Both the position numbers and the translations under genes were made by a program. A stretch of DNA of 64,000 nucleotides, taken from positions 1,736,001 through 1,800,000 of the forward strand of contig JACAAK010000001.1 of NCBI GenBank assembly GCA_025093985.1, written 5' to 3'. This stretch comes from Calvatia gigantea. Lineage: Eukaryota > Basidiomycota > Agaricomycetes > Agaricales > Lycoperdaceae. The notes below the pieces were generated by a model. That model ran no database searches and was not told the DNA's origin. It saw only the letters and a program-made list of their open reading frames with translations. Of the stretch, positions 3 to 48,956 are shown piece by piece. Each line of letters opens with the position of its first letter. Positions within the stretch are counted from its first letter, which is position 1.

Positions 3-1408
3 GCCCATGCCATTTTACAAAGCCACCTCGGAGATTTGATTCGTGATGCTGACCCATCTGAACTCGGTCTCTTCTCCCTTGTCCAGCCCGAAGAGGCCTC
101 CGTCCACGAGAAGCTTGTCGAAATCGAAAGGGTAAATTTCAACGGTGCTACACCACTCAAGAGGCCCAATACACGTCGCGACGATACATCACACCTGCGA
201 GACGATCCCGATGTTTATGCCGGAGCAGCGTTAAAATATATGGACCGATAGTATGTCCCCTTTCCTCATACCCACTCCACGAGCACTTACTTTGTCTCAC
301 CTAGCAAACTTGTCCGGCCCATGCCCCGAGCTCGAGTTGAGGTTCAGGCAATTCTTGAACGGATTCCTATTCTCAGACGAAACATCGAGGATCTCACCGA
401 CGCTTTACATCAGCTTGAACAGGTGTGTGGCCCTTCAAAACCCTTACTACCCCATACCCACTCTACCATGATAGACGCGGGCCCCAATGGGGTTCGATTA
501 CAAACGTAAACTTGAAGAAGAGGAGCGACGCATCCGTGAATTACGCACCAAGCTAACTCAGCTCACCAATAAGGTTGCCCAACCCATTTGCATTTCTTCC
601 GATCTAATATTCAGTTTCAAACAGCGTTTAGCACTCACCAAGGCAAAGAAGTCTCACCTTGACCTCACAGAGAGCAAGAATACAACTCCCAGACCTTTCG
701 TTTCCGCGAAAACTAACCCTGAAGAACATGAGTTCTGGAATACCCCTGGGGCATCCACTCGCACATTCAAGTTCAGTGGCGACAATCTGCTCACAGAACA
801 AGGCGTCGATTTCACGGACATCAGTACCATCTCGTTTTCCGCAAGTCCGACTCTATCAAAGGCGGCTCCCAATATCTTCACAGAAAATGCTTTAAGTCTT
901 TCCGTTGAAAACCCTGGGCGCCAATCCTTCCAAGCTTCAGGTATTTCCCAAGATAAAGATTTACCCTCGAGATCCTCGCGCGTGCAATCCGCAGAATCGT
1001 CGTGCGGCCCAACCCAAGATGTCCCCATACAGAATAATGTAAACATAAGTCTACCCGTCAGAAATCCTGAGCAACTGGACTCCAGCAAAACGGGCAATGT
1101 AGTACTCGAAAACGCGCCCAGCATCACAATCACCCAAGAAGTTGAAACTATTACGGTATGTTCCTCGTTCTACCCTCCTTAAGTGCCATGACAAGCTAGA
1201 GGCAGGTTAAAATTTGGTCTGTGATGAGTGACCTCATTATTGCTGCCGCTGGAACAAACGTTGGGCTGAACAGCAAGCCCTCTACCCGAGAAATCATGTA
1301 AGTGGACACCAGTCACCATGAGCTCTCAACCAACCCACTTTGAAGCAATTACCTAGAGACGATGCAAAAGTCCACGCCGTCAGATGGTCTATCGATAACC
1401 GCGAATGA
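3..1408 (+). CDS. SPC34: DASH complex subunit Spc34, 5' end cut by the window
   Basis: Spc34 is part of the DASH/Dam1 ring that couples kinetochores to spindle microtubules. The first visible exon reads AHAILQSHLGDLIRDADP, which fits the family's N-terminal pattern (alternating small/hydrophobic residues, then LIRD, then a short acidic turn before LFSL). Exon 2 reads YKLVRPMPRARVEV followed by a helix with RIPILRR, matching the Spc34 segment just before the coiled coil. Exon 3 begins with a charged coiled coil (KRKLEEEERRIRELR) and continues into a Ser/Thr-rich tail. Proposed exons are 3-250, 305-422, 475-1155, 1206-1297 and 1357-1408; all joins keep frame. The start codon lies left of the window. 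The last two exons are the least certain, because another frame is also open there. Family assignment rests on remembered pattern, not an alignment. Confidence 0.66.
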
Positions 1409-2310
1409 TGGTCCATCGTTGCAACAAGTTCTAACTGCATCTTTGTTGGTCGGTCTATTGGCATCTCCCGTCCGCTATTCCTTGCCTCTCAGCAGGGTGA
1501 AAGTGTTACTTGCTGCCCAGACCCATGGGGCAAATCCGTCACATTCCAATACCTCCCGTATTGTTTACGGTTGCGTTGCCAAACGCCTTTTGAAGATTGA
1601 TAGAACAGGCGGTGAACAGATTGTTGCTTTCGACGTTTAGGCCAGGAGGGAACAGGATCGCTGGGTCAGAGGACTGCTTCATGGTCAACATGGTGTCGAC
1701 TTCTCCCCCAATAGTCATATATGATGCTGTGAACTATTTATGGGACGAGAAATCACTTACGCAATCGGTGATGAGGTAACTGTCGACGCACAAAGAATGT
1801 CGCATCGTATAAGGTGCCGAGTTGGACGCCCTTCGACACACGTTCTTCGTCAATTTTGTTGGGGTGTTGTAGACTTAGTACTCAAGTATTGAATAGTGAG
1901 TTCACTGGCAGCGCTCACGCGATGGCCACTGCCACCTCCATTGCTATCGTTTTTATATGGGCGGTGGGGATGGGGGATTCTACGGCTAGCGTTAGGTGGT
2001 AAAACCGAGCGAAGACGCTCGCTCTCTCTTCACAATTTGTCTCTCGTGAGAACTTAACACCTTCAAGGGTCTTGGTGATGACCCTGGCAGGGTGAACTTT
2101 AGGACGGTGTTCTCTACTCGTTGCACTTGAACACTAAAAAGACAGAGGGGCAAGTGCGTTGAGTCCTCTGGTGGGAGAGGTACTTGTTTTCATTTCGGGA
2201 CTTATCTATTGAACATTGTTCTCGAATAAAGCGCGAATACATATAACAATGTTTAACCCTCCGAAGGAATAACGGGAGACAATTTAGGACGAGACAAATT
2301 GCCATCAGAA
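1409..2310. other. intergenic region between SPC34 and ATG5
   Basis: About 900 bp separating the tail of SPC34 from the stop codon of ATG5 (convergent 3' ends). Several short ORFs of 60-92 codons occur but none shows domain-like composition or a plausible splice chain. I see no RNA gene or repeat. It probably holds the two 3' UTRs and terminators. Confidence 0.5.
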
Positions 2311-3554
2311 TCAGTTCCGGTCCAGACCAATACAAATATTGAGCCAACCATCTGCTCCTGCAAGGCATGCCCCCAACCAAGCTATCTCGGCTTCCGGCGG
2401 TGATACGACACCCTGCACCAGGGCATAAGCCAGTTCAGAATTGCTCTGTGTTGTGTTAACTCGGGATGATACAACGGGTGTCGAGCTTGGTGAGAATAGC
2501 AAAGGTAAATGGGTTGACAAGAATTGGTAAAGGGTATGGGGAGTGCCTATAAGGCAGCGACGTAAGTGAAAGAGGATTCGGGACTCGTGGACGGCGCCTA
2601 CCATCTTCAAGTAGCGGTGGAACAAGTTCCTGTATGAATGGGCCGTCTGGGAGGTAGATCCTGACAGGGATACATCGCACGGTATAAGCGCTGTCACGTT
2701 CAGGGACACCACCCGCATCGATAGATGGAGGCCGAACATGCATGGACGCATTACCAGGTGATCCGATGGAGGGAGTAGGTGTGGCAGAAGGCGTCACCTT
2801 GGATGCGATGCGCCAATACTCGTCGAAATTATCTGATGAAAGCATGTGTACGTGCGGAACTTTTATCAAGACAGGATGTACGTACGCTCCTTAATGCTTT
2901 CCCATAGACCGTCTTGTTCGGCTTTTCGCAAGCCAGTAATGCGTTTGGTATTTCCCCAGCGGATGAAATCAGCTTCTTTGAGCTGGCCCATGAAGGCTTG
3001 TTTGCATGCCTCCGGAGAAGGGGCCAGCATGAGCTTTTCTGTGGGGGGAGAAACGAGATGGAGGATGATTCGTAGAGGAAGTGATGGTGAGGATTGTCGA
3101 TGCGATGCAGCAGCGCGAACCGAGGCAGATATAGTATGGTTGTCATATATAAGACCGATTGGCCAATGCCTAACGGATAAATCTCAGTGTGCCGCTAAAG
3201 GGGTGAGATAGAGAGGGATGGTGACCATTTCAGCAGTGTGCCTTCTTCTGTTTCAAACCACCAATCTTCTTCTTTGAGGCCACTAGCGGCAGCTTCATCA
3301 AAGACAACATCCATGAGATAGCGACGGACCTCAGGCACGAGGAGGGGCAAGTAGCTGACACGAGGGGCTTGGACATAGTAGCACTCGAGACCTCTGTTTG
3401 AGTTTGCGGGAAGCTCCTTTGTATCGACACGGATTTCAAGAGGAACAGTTCCCTCCCATGTGAGTCGACGGAAGAGAATAGTGTGATAGTCGGTAATCCT
3501 GTCCTTTGCAGCCCCTTGCGCAGGATGGTGTCGTGTGGTTGCGTAGCCAGCCAT
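2311..3554 (-). CDS. ATG5: Autophagy protein 5 (Atg5)
   Basis: Atg5 is the acceptor of the ubiquitin-like Atg12; the Atg12-Atg5-Atg16 complex drives Atg8 lipidation during autophagosome growth. Four exons: 3554-3226, 3169-2886, 2832-2602, 2546-2311, giving 359 aa. All three introns are 53-56 bp with GT..AG ends. Diagnostic stretches are RRLTWEGTVPLEIRVD and CYYVQAPRVSYLPLLVPEVR in the first ubiquitin-like domain, LLKWHWPIGLIYD across the first splice, FMGQLKEADFIRWGNTKR (the lysine near residue 174 is the expected Atg12 attachment site), HNFDEYWRIASKV across the second splice, and the C-terminal AWLGACLAGADGWLNICI. Length is normal for fungi and no break is seen. Divergent from DBF4 on the upstream side. 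Confidence 0.96.
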
Positions 3555-3923
3555 TGACTCCCCGCATTAACCGCAATCCTCGTCACAAACAGGAATATCA
3601 GTGTCATGTCACGTGACAAAAACGCGTGACTCTCCCGTCTTCTTCACAAATTTAAATTATACGACCATTTCTACCTCAGGCCTCAAAGTGCATTGGAAGA
3701 GAACTGGTTACAGAAAGAAGCAACCCCTGTGCAACTAAGCAGCTAATTTATACTTAATCAGAGTCGATCCAAGGAATCCCTTCCCTGGGCTTGACTTCAT
3801 GGACGCGTCACGCGTCTGATGCGCGTGACAGACTGACAAGTTGAAGGACGTCACGTTGAACTTAACCTCATCGCAGACTACGAGTTGCGCTGACACGTCC
3901 TCTATTTTCTTTCCTGTTCCAAC
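3555..3923. promoter_or_regulatory. divergent ATG5/DBF4 promoter with MluI cell-cycle boxes
   Basis: The 369 bp between the two start codons contain three ACGCGT cores: 3622-3627, 3803-3808 and 3810-3815, the last two one base apart and about 110-120 bp upstream of the DBF4 ATG. A CACGTG box lies at 3610-3615. ACGCGT is the core bound by the fungal MBF factor at G1/S genes, and DBF4 is a known kind of MBF target. Binding here is inferred from motif match only. Confidence 0.55.
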
Positions 3924-5824
3924 ATGACCAGCGTCAACCGTCGACCACTCGCGATTCGCCCCTCGCAGCCCCTTGCAGCTGCACTTTCTCCTGTCTGTTA
4001 CCTCAAATCTCAATTGCCCAAGCGACCAAGATCTCCAGACTCCGCGGTCCATAATCTTGGTTCATTGATCAAGCGGCATAAGCCCACAGCAACAACCGCG
4101 CCATTCAACATCGCCAAAAAGGACCGCAAGCCAGAGCATACCAAACAGAAGGACCTTCAAAGAGCAGAACGTGAACAGCAAAGGTTGGAGTTCAAGGAGA
4201 AATATTGCCGGGCTTTCCCCAATTGGATATTTCACTTTGACACCGAATCATTGGAGAATGAGCATCAACTAGAATTGTTCCAGTCGAGGATCCGCCAACT
4301 TGGAGCGGTACGCCTTGGGCCCGTCTGAGTCACTTTTTCCTCATCCGCCTTGCAGATAACTGAGCCCTTTTTCTCTCGTGAAACGACACACTTGATATCC
4401 AACCGCCCTGTCCCCGGTCAATCTAATAATTCTGAAAAAGAAAATACATACAAGGGTCGAATATCGTCGAAACCGGTGCAAATATCGAGAAGCCCTATAA
4501 AGATGCGGTCACGGTGAGCTCCAGTTGGGACCTAGAACATGAATTTACTTATCGTATCGGGTAGCCAGCAAGAAGACCAGGAACCAACCGATCTAATAGG
4601 AAATGCTCTCAAGTTTAACATCAAGATCTGGAATACGACAAAACTTGAAAGCGTGCTGGCACGCTGCCTTGAAGAATCCCCAAACACCACGACTTCTTTG
4701 AGTTCAAATTTCAAACAGCGAAACCCCAATAGTCTTTCCAAACTTTTGCAATCAGAGCGCATACATGGACTTAGTGAGCGCGACCCCATGCAGAAACGAC
4801 ACGATTTCCACTATTTCGGTCGTGGAAGTTATTTTGTCCTCATCGAGGACATACATGGTGAACTCGCAACCATCGCCGCCCATGAATATCCCTCATATAA
4901 AGAACGTGAGGGCGAGAACCCCCCTTGGCCGACATTATATTGTCACCCACACGCGCGCGGACCATTCATACCGTTCGATAGCCGGGAGAAGCGGAGGTGG
5001 GAACGATTACAACAAGCAGAACGGAAGGACAATGAAGAAAGAAGGACGCGCCACGAGGCATTTCTCAAAAGGCATTTGATGGAGAAGCGGACAGATGTGG
5101 GTCCGCCTGTCCGGAAAGGTGGAGACCTTCGACGTTCGGTTTCGATGAATAACATACGCAACGCCAATGCGTTGGAAAACCCGATGTTCGAGCACGATGG
5201 CGAGGGAGATGCAGTTGAATCCGCCAATCCATCTGGTTATCTTGGCTCTGGTCTTGCGGGGTATGTGGCTGCATCAGGAAATAGCGTTGGCATCACCTCT
5301 ACCACTGGGACAACTTCAACCGTTCATTACACGTCACGTAATCTGCAAGTACCTTTCAACCTTAATGGACGGGCACGCCTAGAGGTTGTGATGCGAAAAC
5401 AACCCCAAGAAAAGTTGTTGCGCGCGAAGACGATGGCTCCCCCAGCGGATATTCCTTCACGAGCCCTAGTCTTGAGGAAGAGCAAAAGTACGAACACACT
5501 AAAGCTGCCAAAGCGCGAGGAAGGAAGTAAACCTGGATATTGCGAAAGCTGTCGGCAAAAGTTTGAGGATTTCAAAGAGGTAATACACTGCCTTCGTCCG
5601 GGCCCAAAAACTAAATGCTCCTATCCTAGCATATCCAAGGCCGTAGGCATCGCAGGTTCGCAGAAGACAACAGCAACTTCCTGCAACTTGATTATATCCT
5701 GGAGCGCGTTCAAAGGAGGACCTTGACGGAGCTCCAGGCACTGAACCGACAACATGTCGATATCTGTCGTTCGGTAATAGAACAGGACCACTTTGACTTT
5801 GATCATATTCTCGCTGAAGACTGA
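3924..5824 (+). CDS. DBF4: Dbf4/Dfp1 regulatory subunit of Cdc7-type kinase
   Basis: Dbf4 activates Cdc7 (DDK), which phosphorylates the MCM helicase to fire replication origins. Exons 3924-4307, 4356-4513, 4565-5579 and 5630-5824 join in frame to 583 aa; introns are 48-51 bp. An N-terminal BRCT-like segment spans about residues 108-215 (FPNWIFHFDTES; THLISNRPVPGQ; DLIGNALKFNIKIW). Motif M is near 258-319 (HDFHYFGRGSYFVLIEDI, then PPWPTLYCHPHARGPFIPFD). The C-terminal DBF zinc finger is near 503-545: PGYCESCRQKFEDF, with Cys-x2-Cys followed across the last splice by His-x5-His and then NNFLQLD-like residues (here SNFLQLD). All three hallmarks are present. The short spacer at 4514-4564 is best read as an intron because it removes a stop and restores the BRCT frame. 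Confidence 0.95.
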
Positions 5825-6017
5825 GGTACAGGGTCAGACTCAAGCCCTCGTCCTAGCATGTCCACTTCCATTTCAATGATAGATCTCCATCCTCGTTTGT
5901 AACCTGTAAAATGTCCCACCGAGCCACACCTTCCGGTTATTTTATACCAGATTCCCGTCAACTCAAGTGACAACATATGTAACATCTTGTATAATACACA
6001 CAGGCAATCATGACTAA

Positions 6018-7152
6018 TTAAATGATCGTCACGGTTAGAAGGGTCACAACTCCGTCAATTGCGATTCCATGATTAATTCTAAAGACCTGGTCGGTTCTAC
6101 TCATACCCAAAAACACGGATAAGAAACCCACCCAACTGTGCCAACAGGGAGGAGGCCAACCAGATCCTCGGCGACCGTACTGTAATTTACACCCCCAAAA
6201 GATTTGTCCCCGACAGCATTAGCGACAAAGTTATCGCGTCCTGTAAGTAAGAATCAGAAGGTGGACGAGCGGCTTACAAGGTAATGACCTTGGTTGTAAC
6301 CGTCCGGCGAAATGGTATGACTTTCAGTAGCAGGCTGAAAGAACGGGCATCACTCAGTGAATGATTTTGAAGTAGACAATGATACCTCTTCTTGCGAAAC
6401 GCTATACGAAAGTAAATTAGGCATTTGTGCTTGTACCAGATGAATTGTAATCCACACATACGCTAAGAACAGTGCATTAGTGGTCGCTAATGGACCATTT
6501 TGCCTGAAAACTCTACCAGTACAATGTCAGTGTTGGGGCCGCTCTTCAAAGGCCGGGACAAACCGGAAATGGTTTCCACCTATCAAACTTTCAAGGCAAG
6601 TACCAGCATTGGAGTCACCATAATCTTGACGTAATTCCACCTAGAAATATGCATTCAAATGTTGCTTCGACTCGAAACGGGGAATGTACTGTTTGATTCC
6701 GGGCCCCATTCCCATCGCCGAGATTTGCAGATTGTGGGTCCCCGATGTGAATACCGAGACACTCCGTTGAGCTAGGAGAGCTAAGCAAGTGCAGATGACA
6801 GAAGGCCAGTATACTAACAAACCAACAGCTCTAGCAAAATTGATGATTCCAGAGTCCGTGAGCACTGCGGGTGAACTTAACCCCGAAATGATGACCTAGG
6901 TGGCCTTAAGTTCGCAGTCTGATATACTGCGGAGAATATGTACGTTGAGTGGCTCGCCCCCACCACTCCCAGCTGAAGCAACAATTGAAAATTGGAAGAA
7001 CTGTCAGAGAGAGTATGCGAACCATTGTCGAGCATCGAGCCACCGTTGATGTGGGGGTCAACAAAAGCGATTGCTCGTTGTTTTAGGGCGGCCGGGATAG
7101 CACCAGCGTGAAAGATTAAGGAAAATGCAACCACAAACTGGCCTAGCTGCAT
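6018..7152 (-). CDS. secreted fungal protein of unknown function, ten exons
   Basis: Reconstructed purely by splicing; no single frame shows it. Exons (minus): 7152-7023, 6972-6944, 6895-6819, 6771-6690, 6640-6564, 6503-6462, 6401-6386, 6334-6289, 6240-6132, 6078-6018, total 669 nt, 222 aa. Every join keeps frame, and exon 7 is only 16 nt. The product starts with a hydrophobic leader (FVVAFSLIFHAGAIP) followed by DPHINGGSMLDNAGSGGGEP, then VIISGLSSPAVLTDSGIINF, ECLGIHIGDPQSANLGDGNG, LRQDYGDSNAGTCLESLIGG, FRQNGPLATTNALFLAVS, DGYNQGRDNFVANA, and ends GIAIDGVVTLLTVTII. I recall this pattern from hypothetical secreted proteins of basidiomycetes; no biochemical function is known to me. Some donors are weak (GTTCGC, GTCATT, GTACAT), but the protein logic is strong. 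ATG chosen at 7152 because an in-frame TTG lies just upstream. Confidence 0.85.
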
Positions 7153-22384: not shown

Positions 22385-22829
22385 CTAGGACGACGCGTCC
22401 TGAGGATGGATGGGTAAGCCGGGGATGGGGGAGAGATAGGAATAAGAGGACATACAGGTGCTTTGGTGGCGAAGCGCTCTGCACGCTTTCTCCGTTTCTC
22501 GAGTTCCTCTGGATCGACGGGGGGTGAATCTGGGGTTGATCTTTTCATGGAGTTGTTGATGCCGAAACGGGCCGCGCGTGCCTCGAGCTTGCCTGGATCC
22601 TAAGGGGAAGGGGAAGGATTTCTTGTGGGTGAGCAAGGAAAGTGGGCAAGGTAATAGATAACGCACGTCTGGAACAGATCCCTTTGCGGTGGCAGGTTGA
22701 ACAAGAGGGATGCCAAAACGGACCGCGCGTGCTTTGCGCTTTTCGAGCTCTAGATCCTCGAGAGAGAGAGGGTTGGCTGGTTGTTGTGCTGATGATGGTG
22801 ATGATGGTGAGAGTGCAGGTACAGGACAC
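22385..22829 (-). pseudogene. C-terminal exons of a THO1/SARNP-like RNA-binding protein, 5' part missing
   Basis: Three exons can be read: about 22829-22667, 22599-22456 and 22399-22385. They encode LEDLELEKRKARAVRFGIP, then DPGKLEARAARFGINNSMK, then PEELEKRRKRAERFATKAPD and a stop. The repeated E-K-R-x-R-A-x-R-F-G blocks are typical of the Tho1/CIP29/SARNP tail, which binds RNA and works in mRNA export. The family's N-terminal SAP domain should lie at higher coordinates on the minus strand, but I find no SAP-like sequence up to 23,264, where repeats begin. Either the 5' exons are far upstream across the repeat nest or the gene was cut by insertion. The left limit of the first exon is uncertain. 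Confidence 0.55.
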
Positions 22830-23264
22830 CTCCAAACATTTCAGTGTTTAACTGGGGTGAGTTACAGTCAGGAACCTTCCAGTAACAGTCACGTGATCCT
22901 TGACCCTTTGGAACACTCTGCTGATGAGTCAATGTGACACAGGTCATACGAAATCATACTGACCTTAAAGTGTGGCCCGATATGGGTATTTGTGTAAATA
23001 AATAAATCAATTCTTTGTTTCTGGGGACATTACTACAATTAATTGGAGGACTAAGGTACACAGCCAGTCCTAGGAAATGTGACAGGTGCATAAAAAGCCC
23101 AGGTTAACCTGAGCTGGTGCCCTGTATTAGCAACATCTTCTTGGCATCTCATGTCAACATAAATTTGGCTATTCCACTACAGGATCAGTTTCCTGTGGCC
23201 ATTTATGTGGCATCCAGGTTTCTTCAGAACACTACAGCTAGCCAATCTGTCATGTACACTACAC
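22830..23264. other. transition from gene space to the repeat nest
   Basis: No ORF or splice chain was found. Base composition shifts to A/T-rich by about 22,970 (runs such as TAAATAAATAAAT). I cannot place the exact junction between host flank and old repeat. Confidence 0.4.
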
Positions 23265-23285
23265 TAATGTTGCTGTGGCTCAGCT

Positions 23286-23828
23286 TGTTGAGAGAACGAG
23301 TAGACATCCCAATATAAGTTCACACTACCTTAGCGTGTAAGCGTCAGCGGTGGAGGGTAGTTGTATTCATCCGGGAGACGGTCCAGTAGGAGAGGCGTAT
23401 GGTAGCGGACATAGTCCTGCTTATACCATCGTACTCAGAGAGTCTTGAGGAGAGGGGAAGCGATGCTTAGAGAAGCTAGCGTAGAGGAGAGAAGACATAG
23501 TGTCTTACCCCGAAGGGTCCATCCAAAAGGATTACATACAGGGAATCTACATAGGTATTATATACTATTAGTCCCTGGTCTGTGCACTCTAAACCCTTAT
23601 ACGGGTGAGGTCTAACTACCAGTAGCATAATGTGTGCATACTGTGCATGTCCGCATGTACTAGAAGGTTTCATGCGTAGTATCTACCTGCTACTTACAGT
23701 GCGGTATCCTACATGCGTAGTCCATAATAGTGTCCGTTATTATCGACCCTCTGAAGGTGAAATACTCGAACCCCGTTTCAGCTATAAATAGACTGAACCA
23801 ACGTAGTGGTACGGAGCGAGATTCAACA
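23286..23828 (-). repeat. 3' LTR of the noncoding element
   Basis: 543 bp with short inverted ends TGTTGA/TCAACA. It appears identical to the other LTR and is related to the solo LTR at 52607-53151. Being next to the purine tract marks it as the 3' LTR for the minus-strand orientation. Confidence 0.93.
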
Positions 23829-23840
23829 CTCCTCCTCACT
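23829..23840 (-). promoter_or_regulatory. polypurine tract of the noncoding element
   Basis: On the minus strand AGTGAGGAGGAG runs directly into the LTR. Such a tract primes plus-strand DNA synthesis during reverse transcription, so it supports both orientation and competence in trans. Confidence 0.6.
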
Positions 23841-24299
23841 TGAAGGGGGGAAGATTAACGCTTCAATAATCTAGCGGTATTGAAACCAGACTTAGACATT
23901 GGAATCTTTAACAAAAGAGCGGCAAAGCCGAACATCAAATGTCAGAGTCATCAACGATCATGCGGAATTAACCAGCTTTTGAAGGTTGGAAAAGCATTCC
24001 TGTAGCGGAGAGGAATTGATGCTAGCATTTGCTATGATGGCCATAAAGGACGCAACAACAATTGCTTTTGAGCTATCAAATATCCTTTAACTCAACTTTT
24101 AAACTCCCGCGACTAACGTCTAAGAGTAAGGAGTAGGAAAGCCTAAAAAGGCTCCTCCAGAAATTGTAAACAGCAATTCTTTCGAAGCGTTCAACAAGTC
24201 TGTTTTTCCGCATAGGTGCAAAATACAAAAAACCATTTTTGCTTATTCAGCATGCGATTATTGTGAGATCAGGAAAGCGGCAGTACTAAGCCAGCGTAA

Positions 24300-24382
24300 C
24301 CAAGGCCGTCACTTTGCGGTTATGTAGATCAATCAGCCGCGGCAGTCCTGTGAGCCGGCGAAGCAATGAAGCTACAAGCCTT
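24300..24382 (+). repeat. 85 bp interior repeat, copy 1
   Basis: Shares with 26270-26354 the words CCAAGGCCGTCACTTT, GGTTATGTAGATCAATC, a GC-rich GCxGCGGCAGTC and, later, CTACAAGCCTT. The two copies lie about 2 kb apart inside the noncoding element. Confidence 0.75.
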
Positions 24383-24531
24383 GTTCTGATTTTTAACTCG
24401 AACAAATTCCAAATTAATGGATTCGCAAATGGAAGTGGTCTCATGCAATTTTCCTCCATGCAAAAGGCATTGCGGCCGATGCGGATTAAGGATTCAGTCC
24501 CAAGGAATGCATACACACTTTTTGTTATTTC

Positions 24532-25215
24532 CCATCAACTCCGAAAAGGAGGGAGGAACTGTTAAGTCCCGTATTTGTTTTTCCATACAACTCCGAAGAG
24601 GTGGAAGGATCTTGAAATTGACCCCGTATATTTTTCCGGACTCTCGATGTGAGGCGGATGGATAAATTCCATGTAGATGTTTTACCGTAGACTCACGAAG
24701 AGGTGGAAGGTTACATTCAAAACCTATGGAGTTTTTCCTCAATCTTGTAAAAGAGAGAAGGGATCGTTAGACCCTATCTTATTTTTATCTTGCGAAAGGA
24801 ATAAGTTCCTGCCATATTTTTACAGTAGACTCTTGAACGAGTGTGAAGGAATATGTTCCTGATTTATTTTATCCAACAACTTCGTAAGAGGTGGAAAGGT
24901 AAAAGCGTAAACCTTATAATATTTTCTCCTACAACTCGTAAAAGGAGGAAGGAATAATTTCCTGATGTTATTTTTGCCTAAGATGCTCAACTTGAGACGT
25001 CGGCGGGGATAACTCCCCAGTTGTTTTATCAGCGACTCGCGAGAGGCGATAGGAACAATTGAAAGTCCTATGAATATATTTTTCCAGCGACTGTGGCGGA
25101 AAGGAATATTTCTAAACCTAATATTTTTATCCAAGCATCTTCATATGAAGGCGGAAAGGAATATCATGTCCTTTGTATTTTCCCATCGACTCCGAAGAGG
25201 AGGGCTCGCAATGAC
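24532..25215 (+). repeat. array of about 14 imperfect units, each with two potential hairpins
   Basis: Units of about 35-55 bp repeat a loose pattern: ACTCCGAAGAGGTGGAAGG, a short spacer, TTCC, then TATTTTT. Each can form a first stem around the CTC..GAG part and a second around GGAA..TTCC. The stems vary but stay paired. First stem examples: CTCCgaaaaGGAG, ACTCttgaacGAGT, CTTcgtAAG, CTCAAcTTGAG, CTCGCGAG, CTTCATATGAAG. Second stem examples: AGGAAtaagTTCCT, AAGGT..ACCTT, GGGG..CCCC, ATAGGA..TCCTAT, AAAGGA..TCCTTT, AGGTT..AACCT. One unit near 25086 has a poor first stem. Strand of function is unknown; since the element is read leftward, the transcript would carry the complement, in which most of these stems also pair. 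No coding role is apparent. Confidence 0.75.
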
Positions 25216-25234
25216 GTAGGAATCGGTATCATGT

Positions 25235-25296
25235 TGTGGCAGTCACTCGAGCCAGCTAGTTACATCGCATTCGCAGCAATCGCTCGAGCCAGCTAG
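25235..25296 (+). repeat. dispersed 20 bp motif of the noncoding element, two adjacent copies
   Basis: GGCAGTCACTCGAGCCAGC and CAGCAATCGCTCGAGCCAGC follow each other, both leading into TAGTT. Related copies occur near 24343 (GGCAGTCCTGTGAGCCGGC), 26311 (GGCAGTCACTTGAGCCAGC) and 28481 (GGCAATCGCTCGGGCCAGC). Confidence 0.65.
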
Positions 25297-28200
25297 TTGC
25301 GGATTCGTTAGACTTTATTGTCAAAGCGAGGTCGACGAAGTGGTTTTGGAAAATGCGGATAAAGTCCAGCGTAATCACATGAAGGCGGATTAAATCCAGC
25401 TCAATCAAGGATTGAAGAATCCTTCCACATAACACGTATAGTGCTCGTCTGGTGTCATTCAAACTCTCTTCTTATCTGGTAAGCCGAAGCCCTTCAGATT
25501 ATTCCAGTGTATCTTCTCATCCAGTCTGCAAAAGCAGTTTTTGTCATCAACGCTAAGCATTTCTCACATGCGCGGATAACTGGAGAATTAAATCACAAAA
25601 GCGATGCCTTCAACTTAATGAAATTCCTTTGCTGTGAAGCGCAGGATAAGGCGGTCATCGGATTTGGAGTAAGAATACTGTATCCGTTGTTCTCCTCCAT
25701 GCTTTTCAGCATGTTAAGTTTCCTAATACATGTTACTCAATTATATCGCTTTTTAGGGCTTGGAGAGTGTTTATCATGTTACGAACCACCGCGGCGCACA
25801 TCAATTAAGACGGACCGGCGAAGTGTAGCTATTGAAAGCTTTAATCGTATGCGGTTATTTACCAGCGATTAAGAACTTGTTTTACTGTACTCCTCCCTCA
25901 GCGACGAGTGTTTTCGATTTAAATGTCAACGCGCATTGTTAATGGCGGATCATTATCGATGCAATTCCAGAAATAAAAGAATTTTCTCGTAAGTTTGTTA
26001 AGCTCTGCGAGGCGAAGGCTCATATGGAGGTATAACCATCACATATTTTTAGGATGATATATCCGAGCTGTTGCGCTTTTCTGGTAGACGCTAGCGTGAA
26101 CGCTTAGCAAGTCTTATGCTTGTCCAACTCTAGTCGGTGAGTCCAAACGAGTTCTTCTTGAAATTGGACGCCTAATCCATTATAGTCTTCCTGTAGGTGA
26201 CCCGCGTAATGAACGGTGCGGTCTTTTCCTAGTCAGGTTCAATTGTGCAATGCGTTTTAACCAGCATTTCCAAGGCCGTCACTTTTTACGGTTATGTAGA
26301 TCAATCGGCTGCGGCAGTCACTTGAGCCAGCAAATTTATGATACTACAAGCCTTTTTAAGCGGTAGAAATCCTGTAAAGGATGCGCATATTATGCATCAA
26401 ATTGGCGAATATGTCAGCGTAAGACATAGGATGTGATAGGCGGAGATTTCTCGAATGGAAATGGAAAGGAATCAGGAGGTGATCGTGGAGTATAATGGAA
26501 TATATCCTGCGACATCCAAAGATGGCGGATAAAGAAATTGCTATTTCTTGCTTCGTGCAGGTTTTGCTCTCTTCTTTGCAAATGAATTGGTTTTACTGCT
26601 ATCCAGTTGCTGAATCATGACGTTTAAGGGTATATTCCCTCATCGAGTAAGGCATCCAAAATGTGGATTGTTCGTAGAACGTTAAGCCTTTCTGTGTGCC
26701 GCTTGAACTCAAAAGTTCTCGTTGATCAAACGATCGAGGTATGTTACATCTCGAATAAGCGATCATGTTTGGGCGGTCATCATGTTAACTGATGCGCCGC
26801 GAAGCCAAACCCACAGTACAGAACCAATTTAATGGTTTATCCCTTGATTCACACAATTAAGTGTCTTCCACTATAAACATTTGGACTGGCGTGTTACGCT
26901 CTAGTCAACGCTTAAACTATCACTGAGACGGGTAAGACATTCCCGTTGCCATAAAGCTTTTAGGCTCTCAAAGTGTAGTGCGGATCAGTCTCTCTACATC
27001 AACCGTTGCGGAAGCATTGGGAGTAGGAGGTTTAAGTGGGTTATTCATGCCACGAATATTTGCTATTGCTCTCGTTTAGACAAACTCTCCTCCATAATCA
27101 GTTGCGACATTGGCCATTGTCAGCTATTACTGTAGAGGTTTCTCTAATGAATCTTAGAGCCTCATAACTTCTTTTGAAGGAGGACAACTATCATCATGAG
27201 ATAAGAAGTCATAGAGTAGCGTCGTAATAGACGACTAGCAATTCCATCAAGTCCGAGTATTACACTCAAGGACGAGGATATTCGTATAAAAGATTCTGGA
27301 TAAAGGTACTGATGCAGTTTCCCTTGTGAAATAATCCAGAGTGGCGATGAAATAATGCAATCATCTCGACAAGTCATAAAAGACGAGTGGAGAAGGCATA
27401 ATCATGGGAAGTTCTGTTCGATGATGTCAAACGATATAGTCTAGTAGGCGTAATGTTCAACAACCATTCATCTCCTTGCTTATAATCGCAAGTTCGTGTA
27501 CAACGATGAGATTGGGTGAACTCATACAGCTCTGCATGACTTTTTGCAAAGGTGGTGACCTTTAACGATTGCCTCAAAAGCATTACACTCGAGGACATAC
27601 GTTATAAGATTTTCTCGATATAGATCGGCCGCACACTAATGTGGCGCTGCAAATCTTTGTCCCTAATGTCATAGACAAATGCTGGAATATCAAAGCAGCT
27701 CAGATACTTGTCGTTCCCGTAGGATTCCAGTTTCTTGCCTCAAGCCTAATATAAAGCGGCGAGGTCTAAGAATTAAACTTGGTGACATAGTACTGAAGCT
27801 CAACCGTTATACGTTGGGAGCTATTCTGCTAATTCCTAGACGTGTCGTAATTTCCTTTCTTTGTAATGATGCGATTCACGAGATCCTTAAAAGGATATTC
27901 TTCTCAAGTGAATAGAGTGACTTGCTCCCGCTATCATCTTCATATGATCCGTAAGGATTTCTCACTTGTTGCGTGGAAAAGGATTTATAGCCAGCGCTTA
28001 CATCTCACGCGGCACACCATTATTCATAGCATTTATCAAGGAGTATGAAGTCGAAAGTACTACCGTATATCCATCCATTGGTTATCAAGGTCAGCGACAT
28101 CTGAAGATGGCGACGCAAGAACTCCTCCGGCGCCAAGCTCCATAAAGAGCGGTCAAAAGGATTTCTTAAGGAATTCGTCGGCGTGTTGCATCGTATGGTG

Positions 28201-29465
28201 CTATACTCATCCTCTTTCTCAATTATAGTTGCTAAATGGTGCGCTCGAGTCCTAATAATGGACGGCAACTTCCATGAAGTCAAACTTCCTTAAAGCAATC
28301 ATTGTTATTCCTGTAGTTGGCGGACAAAGCATTTTAATGTGCTCGTCCATGCTCTGACTTAAAACAGGTCTTCTAACTTGGGCGCGTGGACTTGCGCTTA
28401 ACACAAGTGAAGGAACGTTGATGCTAGAAGCAGGGCGCGATATATAGCGACGCAGCTCCTCTATAAGAGAAATAGTATATGGCGGCAATCGCTCGGGCCA
28501 GCGGCATATTTAAACTATATTCTGAAGTATTTCCTGAAACGACATAATGGCAGTTTTTCCGGCTCATTATCCTTCTCCCCTTATTTCCCAGCTGCAAGGA
28601 CGCGATTAGCATTCTTCTCCTTGCTATCTTCTTTGGATATTTTTGCGAATGCTGCAAGTGCTGCTGCAACGTAAGCGCTGCAAATGCGGCGGCCCACTGC
28701 CTTAGCATGGCATAAAGTGCTTATAGCACATGAGCTATTCGTAGAAAGAGTAAAGCGGTAGTCGAATAGACGTGGAAGGGGTAAAGAGTTGAAGCCTGTA
28801 GTGAAGGAACAAACGGCGGACTTCTCAAAGATATTTTCTATATCCCAGCTTTATTTGATTAAGCGGGCCTTAGCGGCTTATAGCTGCCAGCTTAAGTGGG
28901 TCAAATAGCTCAGGTATATGCTCGTGGTGTGTTATTCTACTCAAGGCGGGACTTGCCCAGTCGACTTGAAACACAAGAACACAAGGCTTATAATTTGCCT
29001 GACACTGCGGTATTATTGCGGTCACGAAGACCAGCTAATTTACCAGCAAAGCGGAGCGTAGTGCTCAGCATAGATGATACATCATATAGTGAATTACTGA
29101 GGCGGATCTGAAGAGAATCCCAGAAAGCCCAAAGCGTTGTCGTCGATCAGAGAGGATACCAGAACAGAGGTGGAGCAACCAGAGCGGAACAGTTCTGCTG
29201 CAATCCAGAATGGAGAGCGGACCTAAAGCGGTCGAACCAGACCGGAGATGACGGTTTGCCAGATCAAAAACCAAGAACGGGTAACAACGTGTCAGCATCA
29301 TGTAGGACTGCTGTGCGTAGTGCACGCGTTCACAACATGGGTCAGACAGGGTATCAAGTGGACCAAAGGCACCACTGTCTCCCAGGTTGAAAGCGACCGT
29401 AGCCTCCTCAAACTCTACCAGCGTGCTAACGCGGTCCGAGTGAGCGGCGGTCGGGGCCCATAACC
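25297..29465. other. remaining interior of the noncoding element
   Basis: About 4.2 kb without recognizable protein. Small direct or inverted words recur, for example GGATaaaGTCC and GGATtaaATCC, about 30 bp apart near 25360-25400, then GGATTgaagAATCC near 25410. The words GCGGA and GGCGG are frequent. Minus-strand sequence beside the right LTR (29446-29465) contains TGGGCCCCGACC, a weak primer-binding-site candidate. Confidence 0.5.
26270..26354 (+). repeat. 85 bp interior repeat, copy 2
   Basis: Second copy of the block at 24300-24382, with scattered substitutions and small indels but the same order of words. Confidence 0.75.
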
Positions 29466-30008
29466 TGTTGAGAGAACGAGTAGACATCCCAATATAAGTT
29501 CACACTACCTTAGCGTGTAAGCGTCAGCGGTGGAGGGTAGTTGTATTCATCCGGGAGACGGTCCAGTAGGAGAGGCGTATGGTAGCGGACATAGTCCTGC
29601 TTATACCATCGTACTCAGAGAGTCTTGAGGAGAGGGGAAGCGATGCTTAGAGAAGCTAGCGTAGAGGAGAGAAGACATAGTGTCTTACCCCGAAGGGTCC
29701 ATCCAAAAGGATTACATACAGGGAATCTACATAGGTATTATATACTATTAGTCCCTGGTCTGTGCACTCTAAACCCTTATACGGGTGAGGTCTAACTACC
29801 AGTAGCATAATGTGTGCATACTGTGCATGTCCGCATGTACTAGAAGGTTTCATGCGTAGTATCTACCTGCTACTTACAGTGCGGTATCCTACATGCGTAG
29901 TCCATAATAGTGTCCGTTATTATCGACCCTCTGAAGGTGAAATACTCGAACCCCGTTTCAGCTATAAATAGACTGAACCAACGTAGTGGTACGGAGCGAG
30001 ATTCAACA
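29466..30008 (-). repeat. 5' LTR of the noncoding element
   Basis: Same sequence as 23286-23828. The right-hand target duplication CAGCT follows at 30009-30013. The promoter for the leftward genomic RNA should lie in this copy. Confidence 0.93.
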
Positions 30009-30067
30009 CAGCTTGGCTCAGCTTGGCTCAGCTCAGGCACAGCTTGGCTTTATCATAGCTCAGAAGC

Positions 30068-30177
30068 TGTTATGACCTTAGTCTGGCTGAACCTCAGGTT
30101 GCAACTTGGGCTAAGACTTGAGGGCAAGTAAGGGAAGAGAAACTATAGATGGTTAAGCATACTGAATATAGGAGGTG
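30068..30177 (+). repeat. fragment of the 308 bp TGTTATGACC LTR family
   Basis: Starts TGTTATGACCTTAGTC and continues through words shared with 59216-59523 (CTCAGGTTGCA, CTTGAGGGC, AGTAAGGGA, GATGGTTAAGC). It is cut after about 110 bp, where the Tc1-like element begins. Confidence 0.75.
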
Positions 30178-30179
30178 TA

Positions 30180-31784
30180 CAGTAAGGGACAAAACCCTTC
30201 CAATGATTTTGACTTTTTCATGAAATCTCAAATAACTCAGCAACCACTAAGCCAATTCATTTCAAATTTTAAATGAAGGTAGTCATGCTTCTTATCTACA
30301 AATATGTTTAAGCATTTAATATTATACTTTGTTTCTATGGAGATATGAATTATTGAATATTATGAGTGCATTGGAAGGGTTTTGTCCCTCATTTTCTCCA
30401 GGCACATAACTCTGTTTACTGCTCTCAAACAAATTCAAATAAAATCATATGATGAGAGTAGATTGTGTATAAAGATGAAAGCTTACTTCTCCAGGCCAAA
30501 GTAACCCAATAACTTATCTTCTGTTGACATGAAACCTCTCTCTTCTTCTCAGATTGATCATATCCTCTTTCTCCTTGACAAAGGACATACTGCTACCCAA
30601 ATTGCTTCCACTACTGGTTATTCCCTCAGTACTATCTCTAGAGTTCGCTCTAAACATAGGCCAACAATTTCCAAATCCACTGGTGGCCGTCCAAGCAAGC
30701 TTTCCCCCTCTGATACCAAATATGCCATTTGACTTCTCACCTCTTGCAAGGCCGATAATGCCTCTCAGGTCACAAAGGCCCTCCAAAATATTACCAACCA
30801 ACCTGTTTCATCCAAAACAATTCGAAGGACACTCAAAAGGGCAGGGATGAAGGCTGTAGTGAAGAGAAAACAGCCTTTACTCGCTAGGGTTCACAAGCAG
30901 AAGAGGCTGGTGTTTGCAAAAACATATGCAAACTGGACTGTGGAGGACTGGAAGCAGGTAGTTTGGACAGATGAGACTAAAATCAATTGGATGGGGTCGG
31001 ATGGAAGGCATTGGGTGTGGAAAACAGCAGGAGAGGGGCTTAGTAACAGGCTGGTGAATGGAACTGTCAAGTTTAGAGGAGGTTCTTGCATGATATGGGG
31101 GTGCATGCTATGGCAGGGGCCTAGCCATATACACCACATTGAAGGTACCATGGATGGTGACCTTTATGTTCACATTTTGGATGACAAACTTTACCAAAGT
31201 CTCAAGAAATACAGGAAGAAGAAGTGGCAAGTCCTTTTCCAACAGGACAATGACCCCAAACACACAAGCAAAAAAGCAAAAATGTGGCTTGAAAACAGTG
31301 GTTTAAAGGTTATGGAGTGGCCACTACAGTCCCCAGACCTTAATCCCATTGAACAGCTCTGGACTTATGTCAAAAACAGGCTAGAAGAGTATGAAAACTA
31401 CCCTTCCAGCATAACTGAACTCAGAGAAAGGGTGGATATAGAATAGGGCAAAATTCCTGCATCAGTGTGTCAGAATTTGATAGAGAGTATGCCTAGGAGG
31501 GTTCAGGCTGTTTTACAGGCCAAAGGGGGCTATACAAAGTACTAGAGAACTGATTTTGTGTAGTTTCAGACAGAGGGACAAAACCCTTCCAATGGACTCA
31601 TAATGTTGATTAATTCATATCACCACAGGAACTTAATATTACATAATGCTGTTTATACCTATTTGTAGATAAGATACAAGACTACCTACATTTAAATTCT
31701 GAAGTGGATACCTTTACTGGTTGCTGAGTTATTTGAGATTTCATGAAAAAGTCAAAATCATTGGAAGGGTTTTGTCCCTTACTG
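30180..31784 (+). mobile_element. Tc1/mariner element, 1,605 bp
   Basis: Outer termini are inverted copies: CAGTAAGGGACAAAACCC at the left and its complement at the right, continuing through a TCAAATAACTCAGCAACCA-type word over at least 80 bp. TA dinucleotides flank both ends (30178-30179 and 31785-31786), the Tc1/mariner hallmark. About 190 bp in from each end an inverted copy of the terminal word recurs (near 30368-30394 and 31572-31597), so each end is itself a foldback. The transposase inside has two stops. Confidence 0.93.
30529..31545 (+). pseudogene. Tc1-type DDE transposase with two in-frame stops
   Basis: The frame from 30529 to 31545 encodes 338 residues apart from a TGA after KYAI (near 30730) and a TAG after VDIE (near 31444). 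The N-terminal helix-turn-helix reads DHILFLLDKGHTATQIAS and TTGYSLSTISRVRSKHRP. The catalytic triad is visible as WTDETKINW, FQQDNDPKHTS and SPDLNPIEQLW, a Tc1-like layout with Glu as third residue. Both stops are single transitions from sense codons expected at those places (CGA Arg and TGG Trp). The enzyme cannot be made full length from this copy. Confidence 0.93.
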
Positions 31785-31786
31785 TA

Positions 31787-32643
31787 TAGTTGACTGAAAT
31801 TTGAGGACAATTTATAGTGTACTGGGATCAAATATGAAGATAAATGCATGGTATTACTGTGATTGGGCACCAGAGGTTGGGAAGATGGACCCAGAGGTTA
31901 TTAATGGGTTTCTGCCTGAGTGGGTCCCCTCCAGGGGCTCTTGTGAGCTTGACCATGATAGTGTATATGCCAAACAAAGTCAAGTATGTGACATGTGACC
32001 ACTGAGATGTAGGTGTATTATTACCTAATGCTTGATTACACTATATTGTGGTTAATTAGGCTGCATGAAAATTACTACCGCTAGTTGTAGGAATGTAATA
32101 TTTTCATATTATATGTATTTAACTGAATAATATCATGGTTTTGGTTTTGGAATCTACTGTTTTATTTTGACCTATAATGGCTAATTTTATTACTGGCTCA
32201 AGCTGGCTGAGCCATGACTTGAGTGGCTTTAGAGCTGAGCTAATTACTATTAAGCCATGAGCCAAAAATTTTGTTGGCTCAGCTAAAAGTCAGCTTAGTT
32301 CGGCTGGCTTGCAGCTTTGAGCTGAGCCTATAGCAACACTATACTACATACTGGTCAAATATTATGGAAATATGAATGATTGAGCCTAACCTGTGAGTAA
32401 GTTTTTGGATCACCTGATTTTTTTTGCTATTTAAATGAGTCAAACCCTGTTTGAACAAGTTTGAACAGTTTGTTTACTTTCTACAACATTGCCTAGGGCT
32501 TGGGTCAATAACTTTACCTTGCTTTTGACCTTACCTTTAAGCTTTGTCACTAAGGGGGTATAGTGCCTTCAGATGAGAGATGAGTAAGTGTTATACAAAC
32601 AAAGAAAACAAATGAATTGAACTGGAATTTTGAATATAGCCAC
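31787..32643. other. old interior sequence and spacer
   Basis: Contains a 65-codon open stretch (31801-31998) without recognizable motifs, the GAGCCA/GGCTCA-rich right end of the hAT-like element (to 32341), then A/T-rich DNA with no feature I can name. Confidence 0.4.
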
Positions 32644-46650: not shown

Positions 46651-48943
46651 GGGTGTGCAGGTGAACGCGGCTTTTCTCACTCCTTGTGATTTTGATGTTT
46701 AATAAAGTTGAATGTCCAATAAAAAAAAAGTCTGTCCATGAATAAGAGTGAAAATAAGTCCATTAAGTGTTACAAAGAATGTAAGGGACCAGGCTTAGCA
46801 GGATAAGCTGTATGGAAATCTGCCACAAGTTCAGCTGCATGCTCTAATTCAGTAGCAGACAGCCAAGAAGACTCTTCTTTAGTATCCTCATAACCCAACC
46901 AAATGACCTTGTATAATAACTTGCAGGCATGTCGACGGTCGATCTTCGAGTCAACAATGTGGGCGATTTCATACTCCGGCTCACCTTTGACTTCAACAGG
47001 TAGAGGAGGTGGGTCAGAGCAGCCGTCAAATGGGTTAGGTATGGCAGGTTCAAGTATTGAAATGTGGAATACTAGGTGAATGGCACGCATTGAGTCAGGT
47101 AAGTGTAGAGTATAAGAAATGGAACCAGGTTGAGTGATAATCTCATAAGGACCCAAATACTTTTCCGAGAGTTTCTTCGACGGTCGAGTCATGTGGAAGA
47201 ACTGCACCTTAACGAAGACCTTTTGCCCAACTGTGAAGTTAGGTGTGGGTGTCCAGTAGGCATCAGCGGATGACTGGTACCGTTCTTGAGCTTGCTTGAT
47301 CTTGGATTTGGGTACTGTGTAGAGTTCATCAAGGTCGACAATGAATTGACATGCATGTGTGGACGCCAAGTCGCGTTCCAGATAGACTGTGATATTGGGA
47401 TGATAGCCTTTATTAGCAAAGAATGGGGAGACACCAGTAGTGGCACTAGGAGCGTTGTTATAGGCAAACTCAGCTAGTGGCAGTAACTCAGCCCAGTTGT
47501 CCTGCTGGTAGTTACAGTAGATGTGGAGGTATTGCTCGAAAGTTTGGTTAGTCTGTTCAGTTTGTCCATCGCCCTTAGGGTGATACCCAGAGGTGAAGTG
47601 TAACTTCATATCCAGTGCTTGTCCAAGTGAGCAGAAGAAGTGTGAAACGAATTCAGAGCCGCGATCAGATGTAACATGTTCGGGAACGCCATGTTTCAAG
47701 AATACATGAATGACAAATAGGCGGGCGAGTTCGGCCAAGGTGATGGTGTCATGAGTGGGAATGAACAAAGATTGCTTGGTGAGGCAATCAATGATAACAA
47801 GGATAGTGTCGTAGCTGGAAGATGTGGGAAGTTTCTCAATGAAGTCCATAGAGATAGAGTTCCATGGCCATTCAGGAATGGGGAGCTGCTTGAGGTTTCC
47901 ATAAGGTCAGTGTTATTGTGGCTTAGAGCACATGCAGGTGATGCAGGATTTGCAGAAATCTTTGACTGTCATGCGGATTTCGGGCCAAGTGTAATCACAT
48001 CGGACTAACTCTAGAGTCTTGTTCTGACTGAAGTGTCCAGAAAGGATATGATTGTGCTTGTACTGTAGAACGCGAAGTTGAAGATTGTCAACATTGGGAA
48101 CATAGATCCTGTCGTCAAGGTGGAGAAAACCAGATGAATCTACAGTCCAGTGTCCTTTAAGTTTGGCTAGGTGTTGAGCTGCAGTCAGGTCTTGCGGAAG
48201 AGATGAAAGGATGTCAGAATGCAGCTGATCGAGGTCAATGATCATGGCTGTGCAAAGGGAAGGGGTATAAAGATAAGTAGCGCAGATGGAGGCTGCAAGT
48301 TGTTCATGAGTAAAGACTGGATGGAAGTTGTGAGGATTGACTGTAGCGTAGCCATTATTCCCCCCTTTAGGGTAGACATCCCATTGTCTAGTTAAAGCGT
48401 CGGGCTTCGTACCAAGTTGGCCAGGGCGAAAGCAGATGGTGAGATTGAACTGTGACAAGAATTTGGACCAGCGAGCTTGATAGTGGGTGAGGATTTTAGT
48501 GGTGCAGAAGTATTCCAGATTCTTATGATCAGTGACAACATCAATGGGAAGGGGAGCACCTTCAAGATAATGCTGCCAGATCCTAAAGGCTTCAAAGATA
48601 GCCAGTAGTTCCTTGTCATGTGTGTTGTAGTTCAACTCAGCCGAAGTGAATGTACAGGAATGGAAAGCCATAGGGTGAACTTCACCATCCTCAGTGACAA
48701 TAGAGAGGATGGTGGCTAGTGCGTAGTCAGATGTGTCTGTCTTGACAATGATTTGAGCATCAGGGATCCAGTGGGTCAGGATAGGAGCAGAGGTGAAAGC
48801 GTCCTTCAATGATTGGAAAGCCTCTTGACATTTATCATTGAAGTTCCAAGGAATACCCTTGCAGGTAAGGCGGGTGAGAGGAACTACAATATCAGAGTAG
48901 TTATAAATGAAGCGACGATAGAAATTGGCAAAACCTAAGAAGG
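45963..48943. repeat. 2,981 bp tandem duplication, unit 1
   Basis: Unit 1 begins in the antisense gene at the word ACTG and ends in RT/RNase H. Unit 2 follows directly (48944-51924) and has exactly the same length, so no indel has accumulated; differences are scattered transitions. Confidence 0.93.
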
Positions 48944-48956
48944 ACTGCATCGACAT
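46770..48956 (-). pseudogene. gypsy pol fragment in unit 1 (RT end, RNase H, integrase, chromodomain)
   Basis: Minus-strand frame from 48956 reads LGFANFYRRFIYNYSDIVVP, KTDTSDYALATILS (RNase H Asp), TDHKNLEYF, the integrase zinc finger with HNHILSGHF and CKSCITCMCSKPQ, two stops, then from 47849 MDFIEKLPTSSSYDTILVII, TSDRGSEFVSHFF and KGDGQTEQTNQTFEQY (integrase D, D, E) and a chromodomain YEIAHIVDSKIDRRHACKLL. Missing the catalytic RT part, which lies only in unit 2 and upstream. The break between zinc finger and core is two TGA codons. Confidence 0.92.

Follow-up and report, generated by a model that had tools for sequence, protein, structure and literature searches.

A tandem array of short hairpins with conserved base pairing in a non-coding, LARD-like LTR retrotransposon of Calvatia gigantea

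Introduction

The requirements that a non-coding LTR element must satisfy for others to copy it are little known. The element described here bears on this question. A preliminary description of its sequence had reported about 14 diverged units at 24532-25215, each with two short hairpins, and had proposed that selection acts on pairing and not on sequence. Are the stems of this array kept by selection, and what might they do in an element that makes no protein? The dead gag-pol serves here as a yardstick and, together with about 110 copies of the element and the coding relative that the genome also contains, shows which parts are under selection; in the array, the selected part is the stems rather than any sequence. 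All coordinates refer to the window, the whole 64,000-nucleotide stretch of DNA that was analysed.

Results

Structure of the element

The element spans 23286 to 30008 of the window. Its two LTRs are identical across the 544 bases compared (543 within TG..CA) and are flanked by a CAGCT target-site duplication, as expected from the recent movement that had been proposed for it. Its features are listed below.

23281-23285, left copy of the target-site duplication CAGCT
23286-23828, minus strand, LTR (3′ LTR in sense), TG..CA, identical to the other LTR
23829-23837, minus strand, purine tract GAGGAGGAG, preceding the sense 3′ LTR
23830-23904, minus strand, terminal part of the gag-pol frame with the purine tract region, 79% identity to the coding relative
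24496-24525, nearly invariant stretch adjoining the array
25391-29278, minus strand, decayed gag-pol in separate collinear blocks with stops and frameshifts, 67-92% identity to the coding relative
29279-29465, minus strand, leader, 86% identity to the coding copia relative
29452-29465, minus strand, primer binding site GGTTATGGGCCCCG, immediately following the sense 5′ LTR
29466-30008, minus strand, LTR (5′ LTR in sense)
30009-30013, right copy of the target-site duplication CAGCT

The coding relative, at locus L067, has one intact frame of 1931 codons with RVT_2, SH3, rve, gag and other domains; a C-X2-C-X4-H-X4-C knuckle was not found in this frame. The primer site and purine tract, in sense orientation, are common to both elements, and we take the primer site to resemble the anticodon arm of the initiator tRNA. 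A minus-strand sequence inside the right-hand LTR, AACAGGTTATGGGCCCCG, has 312 occurrences in the genome with at most one mismatch, and it follows the LTR of the intact copia element at L067, the one locus examined in full. The 5′ LTR contains a sense TATA-like site at LTR position 265, which has a counterpart in the coding relative.

Comparison of the internal region with the coding relative gave 12 blastn blocks, of which 10 were collinear, and no blocks were obtained when the control sequence was reversed or reverse-complemented. Protein matches to copia gag-pol were weak (best E 7e-4); 10 of 15 rows were collinear and the other five were at E 4.8 or worse. The primer site and purine tract, together with this collinearity, place the sense strand of the element on the minus strand of the window. 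Across eight blocks aligned with the relative, mismatches at codon positions 1, 2 and 3 amounted to 18, 21 and 26 percent, and 11 of 18 gaps were of a single base. The parts best kept relative to the coding element were the leader (86 percent), the start of the LTR and the 3′ end (79 percent). The longest stop-to-stop frame of the element is 144 codons, in agreement with the earlier statement that it makes no protein, and 108 stops were counted in one sense frame. The "non-coding" element is thus a gag-pol that died long ago and persists through its cis signals.

Several further features were noted in the element. The antisense sequence TATAAATA at 23783-23790 (sense LTR position 40), which might be part of an antisense promoter, sits in a 60-nucleotide stretch that is nearly identical between the non-coding and coding LTRs. 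A possible stem-loop lies at 23644-23716 of the LTR, where two pairs differ on both sides between copies: 23646/23715 is C-G in 15 copies and T-A in 11, and 23648/23713 is C-G in 14, T-A in 9 and something else in 3. The sense purine tract GAGGGAGGAGTA at 25884-25908 looks like a central polypurine tract; it lies in a 22-mer that shows no difference among the 27 copies covering it, and 23 of its 25 bases match the coding relative. The element also contains a 73-nucleotide direct repeat (24313-24385 and 26285-26357, 81%).

Layout of the array

The array occupies 24531-25202 and consists of 13 diverged units of about 50 nucleotides and a half unit, most of them with two short hairpins. It is flanked by blocks that match positions 4885 and 5922 of the coding relative, which span the region from within reverse transcriptase to the end of the frame, where the usual copia order puts RNase H. 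The array itself had no match in the relative at L067. Units were defined by cuts at T-runs, which gave 13 units of 37-56 nucleotides (24531-25181) and a half unit ending at 25202, much as first described. We annotated 24 of the 28 possible hairpins (99 pairs) and omitted U2b, U9a, U12a and U14b, which have no clear stem.

Unit 1, 24531-24582, hairpins 24539-24551 and 24551-24570 (one base in common)
Unit 2, 24583-24635, hairpin 24591-24600, no clear second stem
Unit 3, 24636-24683, hairpins 24641-24653 and 24658-24672
Unit 4, 24684-24736, hairpins 24692-24702 and 24708-24725
Unit 5, 24737-24784, hairpins 24743-24754 and 24759-24775
Unit 6, 24785-24821, hairpins 24789-24798 and 24797-24810 (two-base overlap)
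Unit 7, 24822-24869, hairpins 24829-24842 and 24847-24860
Unit 8, 24870-24925, hairpins 24880-24888 and 24896-24915
Unit 9, 24926-24973, hairpin 24950-24963, first stem unclear
Unit 10, 24974-25027, hairpins 24986-24996 and 25005-25018
Unit 11, 25028-25083, hairpins 25036-25045 and 25049-25071
Unit 12, 25084-25128, second hairpin 25102-25119 (3 bp), first stem unclear
Unit 13, 25129-25181, hairpins 25139-25150 and 25155-25174
Half unit 14, 25182-25202, first hairpin 25190-25202

Tandem Repeats Finder reported no repeat in the array even at score 30; the units are therefore alike in plan rather than in letters. All the stem versions quoted in the preliminary description are present in the window, namely CTC/GAG, CTT/AAG, CTCAA/TTGAG and CTTCAT/ATGAAG for the first stem, and AGGAA/TTCCT, AAGGT/ACCTT, GGGG/CCCC, ATAGGA/TCCTAT and AGGTT/AACCT for the second. 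The long first stems are found in few copies of the element: of 40 copies, 2 carry CTCAA/TTGAG and 8 carry CTTCAT/ATGAAG, and the rest have only the CTC/GAG or CTTC/GAAG core. One core pair of unit 5 is G-C in the window copy and A-C in 38 of 40 copies. The U-rich linkers described between units hold for the strand on which they were first read; since that strand is the antisense, the linkers of the genomic RNA are rich in A.

Covariation between units

Units of common descent would make a single inherited hairpin look like many. Each unit's arm was therefore tested against its own partner in comparison with the partners of other units, using 20000 permutations. For stem 2, scored by Watson-Crick pairing, 0, 121 and 780 permutations equalled the observed fit at three ways of splitting the units, the second and third of which (121 and 780) cut into the arms. 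With RNA energies the same splits gave 93, 3922 and 4111 on the plus strand, and 5, 51 and 2437 on the minus strand. When the Watson-Crick test was repeated for each copy of the element (39 of 40 copies testable, the copies not being independent), the largest fraction was 0.0066; as the copies are related, this shows only that the result does not depend on bases private to the window copy.

Stem 2 was also aligned on its core GG/CC in 13 units and six pairs. Paired cells made up 75.6% of this alignment against 65.6% after shuffling (0 of 500 shuffles), and the covariation score was 0.293 against 0.117 (0 of 500), with lower values in six sliding controls. In 8 of 13 units the outermost of the six pairs does not form, and the same number holds for the innermost; without these two, the remaining four were 94.2 percent paired against 81.5 percent (0 of 500). 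In the flanking pairs, A-U is replaced on both sides by U-A or G-C, and there is one G-U pair. The numbers of pairs with two-sided changes (103 of 500 shuffles) and of further pair types (57 of 500) were not unusual. Covariation proposed from inspection thus exceeded shuffled controls in paired cells and covariation score, but not in these two counts, and the statement that both strands of a stem change together holds for stem 2 in that its arms fit their own partners best (0 of 20000 at the best split).

The core CTC/GAG of hairpin 1 varies little between units. Crude splits gave a weak result for this hairpin (333 to 4224 of 20000 permutations). With loop centres placed by eye, nine settings gave 0-373 on the plus strand and 80-6508 on the minus strand, and in tests of 39 single copies the fraction was below 0.05 in 38 on plus and in 30 on minus.

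Sparing of stems between copies

Searches of the genome with up to three mismatches gave 112 hits for a motif from unit 4 of the array, 110 for a 24-mer adjoining the array and 113 for a motif from another part of the element. These three counts, which agree in number and were not matched copy by copy, indicate a family of about 110 copies. Of 128 array candidates we scored 40, namely that of the window and 39 further copies with 93-96 percent identity. Column statistics used 29 other copies and the window copy over 23286-26760, and loop variants were taken from all 40. A column was called variable when a variant was common to at least two of the 30 copies, CpG being excluded. The stem annotation came from pairing in the window copy and was fixed after the list of variable columns had been seen.

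In stems, 5 of 187 columns were variable, compared with 26 of 123 in loops and 36 of 293 in the remainder of the array (Fisher p 2e-6), so that stems compared with all non-stem array columns gave 5/187 against 62/416. When labels were permuted inside trinucleotide classes, 12 of 10000 permutations were as low, and among 56 shifted annotations the lowest variable fraction was 0.038, compared with 0.027 for the true stems. As a neutral yardstick we took the dead gag-pol together with further sequence next to the array, in which 213 of 1928 columns were variable. Stems were about four times less variable than this background, and are therefore not being lost at the neutral rate, while the loops of hairpin 2 were at background (9 of 85). 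T-runs of the array were variable in 2 of 60 columns, against 8 of 61 in T-runs elsewhere (p 0.057 against background). The loops of hairpin 1 were about four times more variable than background (17/38 against 213/1928).

Stems chosen greedily in the array also varied little (14/193, p 0.029), but a mirror-repeat control did likewise (8/133, p 0.022), and this procedure was rejected; only the unit-anchored annotation separates stems from the mirror-repeat control. Paired columns of stems outside the array were not spared. These results, together with the better fit of arms to their own partners between units, therefore indicate that the array stems are kept by selection on base pairing and that the loops are free, and two tests of different kind thus support the selection on pairing first proposed for this array.

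Compensatory double changes between copies were not in excess (36 pairs, compared with 37-47 in shifted context). Such a result is expected if breaks are removed in a young family, which is a matter of consistency and not positive evidence. No inverted loops between copies were found in the 24 hairpins.

At least eight copies with a shorter array occurred among the matches listed, as judged from spacings read by eye. The four that were fetched had lost approximately 53, 53, 102 and 117 nucleotides. Two of them are without one unit and one is without two, joined at roughly corresponding points of two units; in the fourth (L071, 117 nucleotides lost) the join is not at corresponding points. Since copies with fewer units exist, the exact unit number is not essential to the persistence of an inserted copy. 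In a different part of the element, near 28667, an insertion of 61-68 nucleotides relative to the window copy interrupts 8 of the 40 copies that were scored.

Folding of the array

Folding energies of 120-nucleotide segments were barely unusual, with mean z of -0.83 (plus) and -0.31 (minus) in the array and -0.20 and -0.26 in the flanks. Watson-Crick stems were enriched in the array, with 44 stems against 31.7 for arms of at least 4, and 16 against 8.5 for arms of at least 5 (5 of 200 shuffles in each case). Arms of at least 6 (3 against 2.4) and stems tolerating G-U were not enriched. Consensus folding of 30 rows gave the array z scores of -7.0 (plus) and -5.2 (minus) against column shuffles, and -6.4 and -5.3 against shuffles of three-column blocks. 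Other segments ranged from -1.2 to -3.4 on plus and from -2.1 to -5.4 on minus. The array thus stands out on the plus strand and on the minus strand lies within the range of the remaining internal segments (z -3.0 to -5.4). Outside the array, the sense strand of the element gave better folding than the plus strand. A gapped alignment of 40 copies gave z -6.7 (plus) and -7.3 (minus) for the array.

GCGG is over-represented on the plus strand (50, against 9 CCGC). CCAGC followed by GCGG was found in 11 of 18 cases, a number reached in 2 of 777 shifts, and the reverse order was as frequent (12; 4 of 777). The excess looks mostly inherited from the coding ancestor, because the relative's sense strand has CCGC 42 times compared with 50 here. 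The idea that the whole internal region is one hairpin array was rejected, as hairpins beside GCGG outside the array occurred at chance level. A search of 22500-32500 against Rfam gave no match above gathering score, and the two matches obtained were both far below it.

Discussion

What the array may do

We tentatively prefer the explanation that this is a non-autonomous copia-type LTR retrotransposon, copied in trans, whose selected hairpin array would most likely serve as a folded module of its genomic RNA. The gag-pol is no longer usable, the LTR ends, primer site, leader and purine tract are kept, and the element would be copied by the proteins of coding relatives. About 14 tandem units, most of them with a double hairpin, have arisen between what is left of reverse transcriptase and the point where the dead frame ends. 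Its likeliest use, suggested by its form, would be as a multivalent module of the genomic RNA (minus strand) that may help a translation-dead RNA to be recruited, compacted or protected in the particles of its partner. Because a translation-dead RNA must compete for Gag in trans, a folded module of this kind would be a sensible adaptation.

Several observations weigh against this explanation. Mini-Ty1, for which the trans mobilisation of gene-less derivatives is established, needs only terminal sequences, and up to 5 kb of internal Ty1 sequence is dispensable when proteins come in trans, which speaks against the packaging part, although the same review considers that scattered sites may contribute to packaging (PMC4974528). 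Compensatory changes between copies were not in excess, some copies have a shorter array, and no knuckle of the type sought was found in the relative's frame. On the minus strand the folding of the array (z -5.2) is within the range of the rest of the internal region. A more ambitious version, in which a protein-less retrotransposon evolved a hairpin scaffold in its dead pol to capture the machinery of its relatives, as a selfish RNA by shape alone, we regard as unlikely.

A serious rival to a role in packaging, if on the whole a rather unlikely account, is that the array is selected at the RNA level for stability, nuclear export or escape from decay of a stop-rich RNA. The 108 stops in one sense frame and the sparing of the stems fit such a role. 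It is moreover the leader, and not the array, that is the best common part with the coding relative, so packaging may already reside there.

The sense RNA was taken as the acting strand by default, because the genomic RNA of the element must be that strand. It is also conceivable, though improbable, that the acting molecule is an antisense RNA or the first-strand cDNA, with the plus sequence of the window. The advantage of own arms in hairpin 1 had a larger z on plus in all nine settings, and its median over 39 copies was 3.30 (plus) against 2.32 (minus). Three of five tetraloops (U5a, U6a and U11a) are GNRA on plus in most copies, and consensus folding of the array in 30 rows was better on plus. 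The antisense TATAAATA at LTR position 40 lies, as noted above, in a stretch nearly identical in the coding relative. Against a plus-sequence molecule, the RNA energies of stem 2 fit minus better, and consensus folding of the gapped alignment recovered 68 of the 99 annotated pairs on minus and 50 of 99 on plus. Wobble changes, with GT at 9 sites and AC at 8, favour neither strand.

Quite improbable, in our estimate, is the absence of selection, with the hairpins perfected by template switching during reverse transcription or with mutation avoiding paired bases. The stems are almost purely Watson-Crick, with G-U not enriched, three of the four fetched unit losses look like switches between corresponding points, and hairpin 1 loops exceed the background in variability (17/38). 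Correction should, however, leave two-sided stem changes among copies, and among the pairs listed for 30 copies, where one stem was wrongly set, none reaches a second standard pair by a two-sided change. Stems that arose by chance outside the array show no sparing. A sparing of paired bases by mutation would itself need the hairpins to form, and it leaves the covariation between units unexplained.

That the array is an ordinary diverged tandem repeat with inherited or chance stems is very improbable: single-sequence folding is weak and greedily chosen stems dip no more than their mirror-repeat control, but the own-versus-swapped tests remove inherited pairing, and the low variation of unit-anchored stems (5/187 against 62/416) survives trinucleotide matching and 56 shifted annotations.

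Relation to known elements

With its selected hairpin array, the element is LARD-like and non-autonomous. LARDs (large retrotransposon derivatives) are LTR derivatives without coding capacity whose RNA structure is conserved (PMC7215508), and they have been reported in the mushroom Laccaria bicolor (PMC3411680). The present element resembles them as an LTR element with a large internal domain of several kb and no coding capacity, assumed to be mobilised in trans. Conserved RNA structure of the internal domain was found in the array; outside it, such structure was indicated only by consensus folding, chance stems there not being spared. The approximately 110 copies and the identical LTRs of the window copy bear on mobility. 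The element differs from LARDs in that its internal domain can still be recognised as decayed gag-pol and contains covarying hairpins arranged in tandem. The open-licence literature searched yielded no description of an array of this kind in a LARD, so that the earlier remark of knowing no described family like it stands for the array in that literature and falls for the class, which is that of the LARDs.

The element has the Ty1/copia characters of TG..CA LTRs with a short target duplication, a collinear gag-pol, and a common primer site and purine tract, and copia relatives in the same genome have its primer site. It differs from Ty1 in that the array lies towards the 3′ end, whereas the Ty1 packaging region is near the 5′ end (PMC4974528).

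Two other systems resemble the array in form. Double-hairpin elements of fungal mitochondria have two adjacent short hairpins as a repeated unit, and are mitochondrial and dispersed. The array has the two-hairpin unit in common with them, but its units stand in tandem and lie within an LTR element. RNA phages and plant viruses have dispersed packaging hairpins that are many, weak, and alike in form but unlike in sequence. The same likeness of form over sequence is seen here, with the difference that the hairpin 1 loop is the most variable part. No relatives of the element were found in viral contigs with two exact patterns and one protein as queries.

Other features were observed in the window. 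A Dbf4-like protein has 78 percent identity to a protein of Macrolepiota fuliginosa in the search listing, which places the host among the agaric mushrooms. Next to the element, 30178-31786 is a Tc1/mariner-like transposon remnant with a DDE_3 frame between inverted repeats. Gypsy-type retrotransposon frames, with reverse transcriptase and RNase H, parts of integrase, and a chromodomain, lie at 46770-52633 and 60739-62106.
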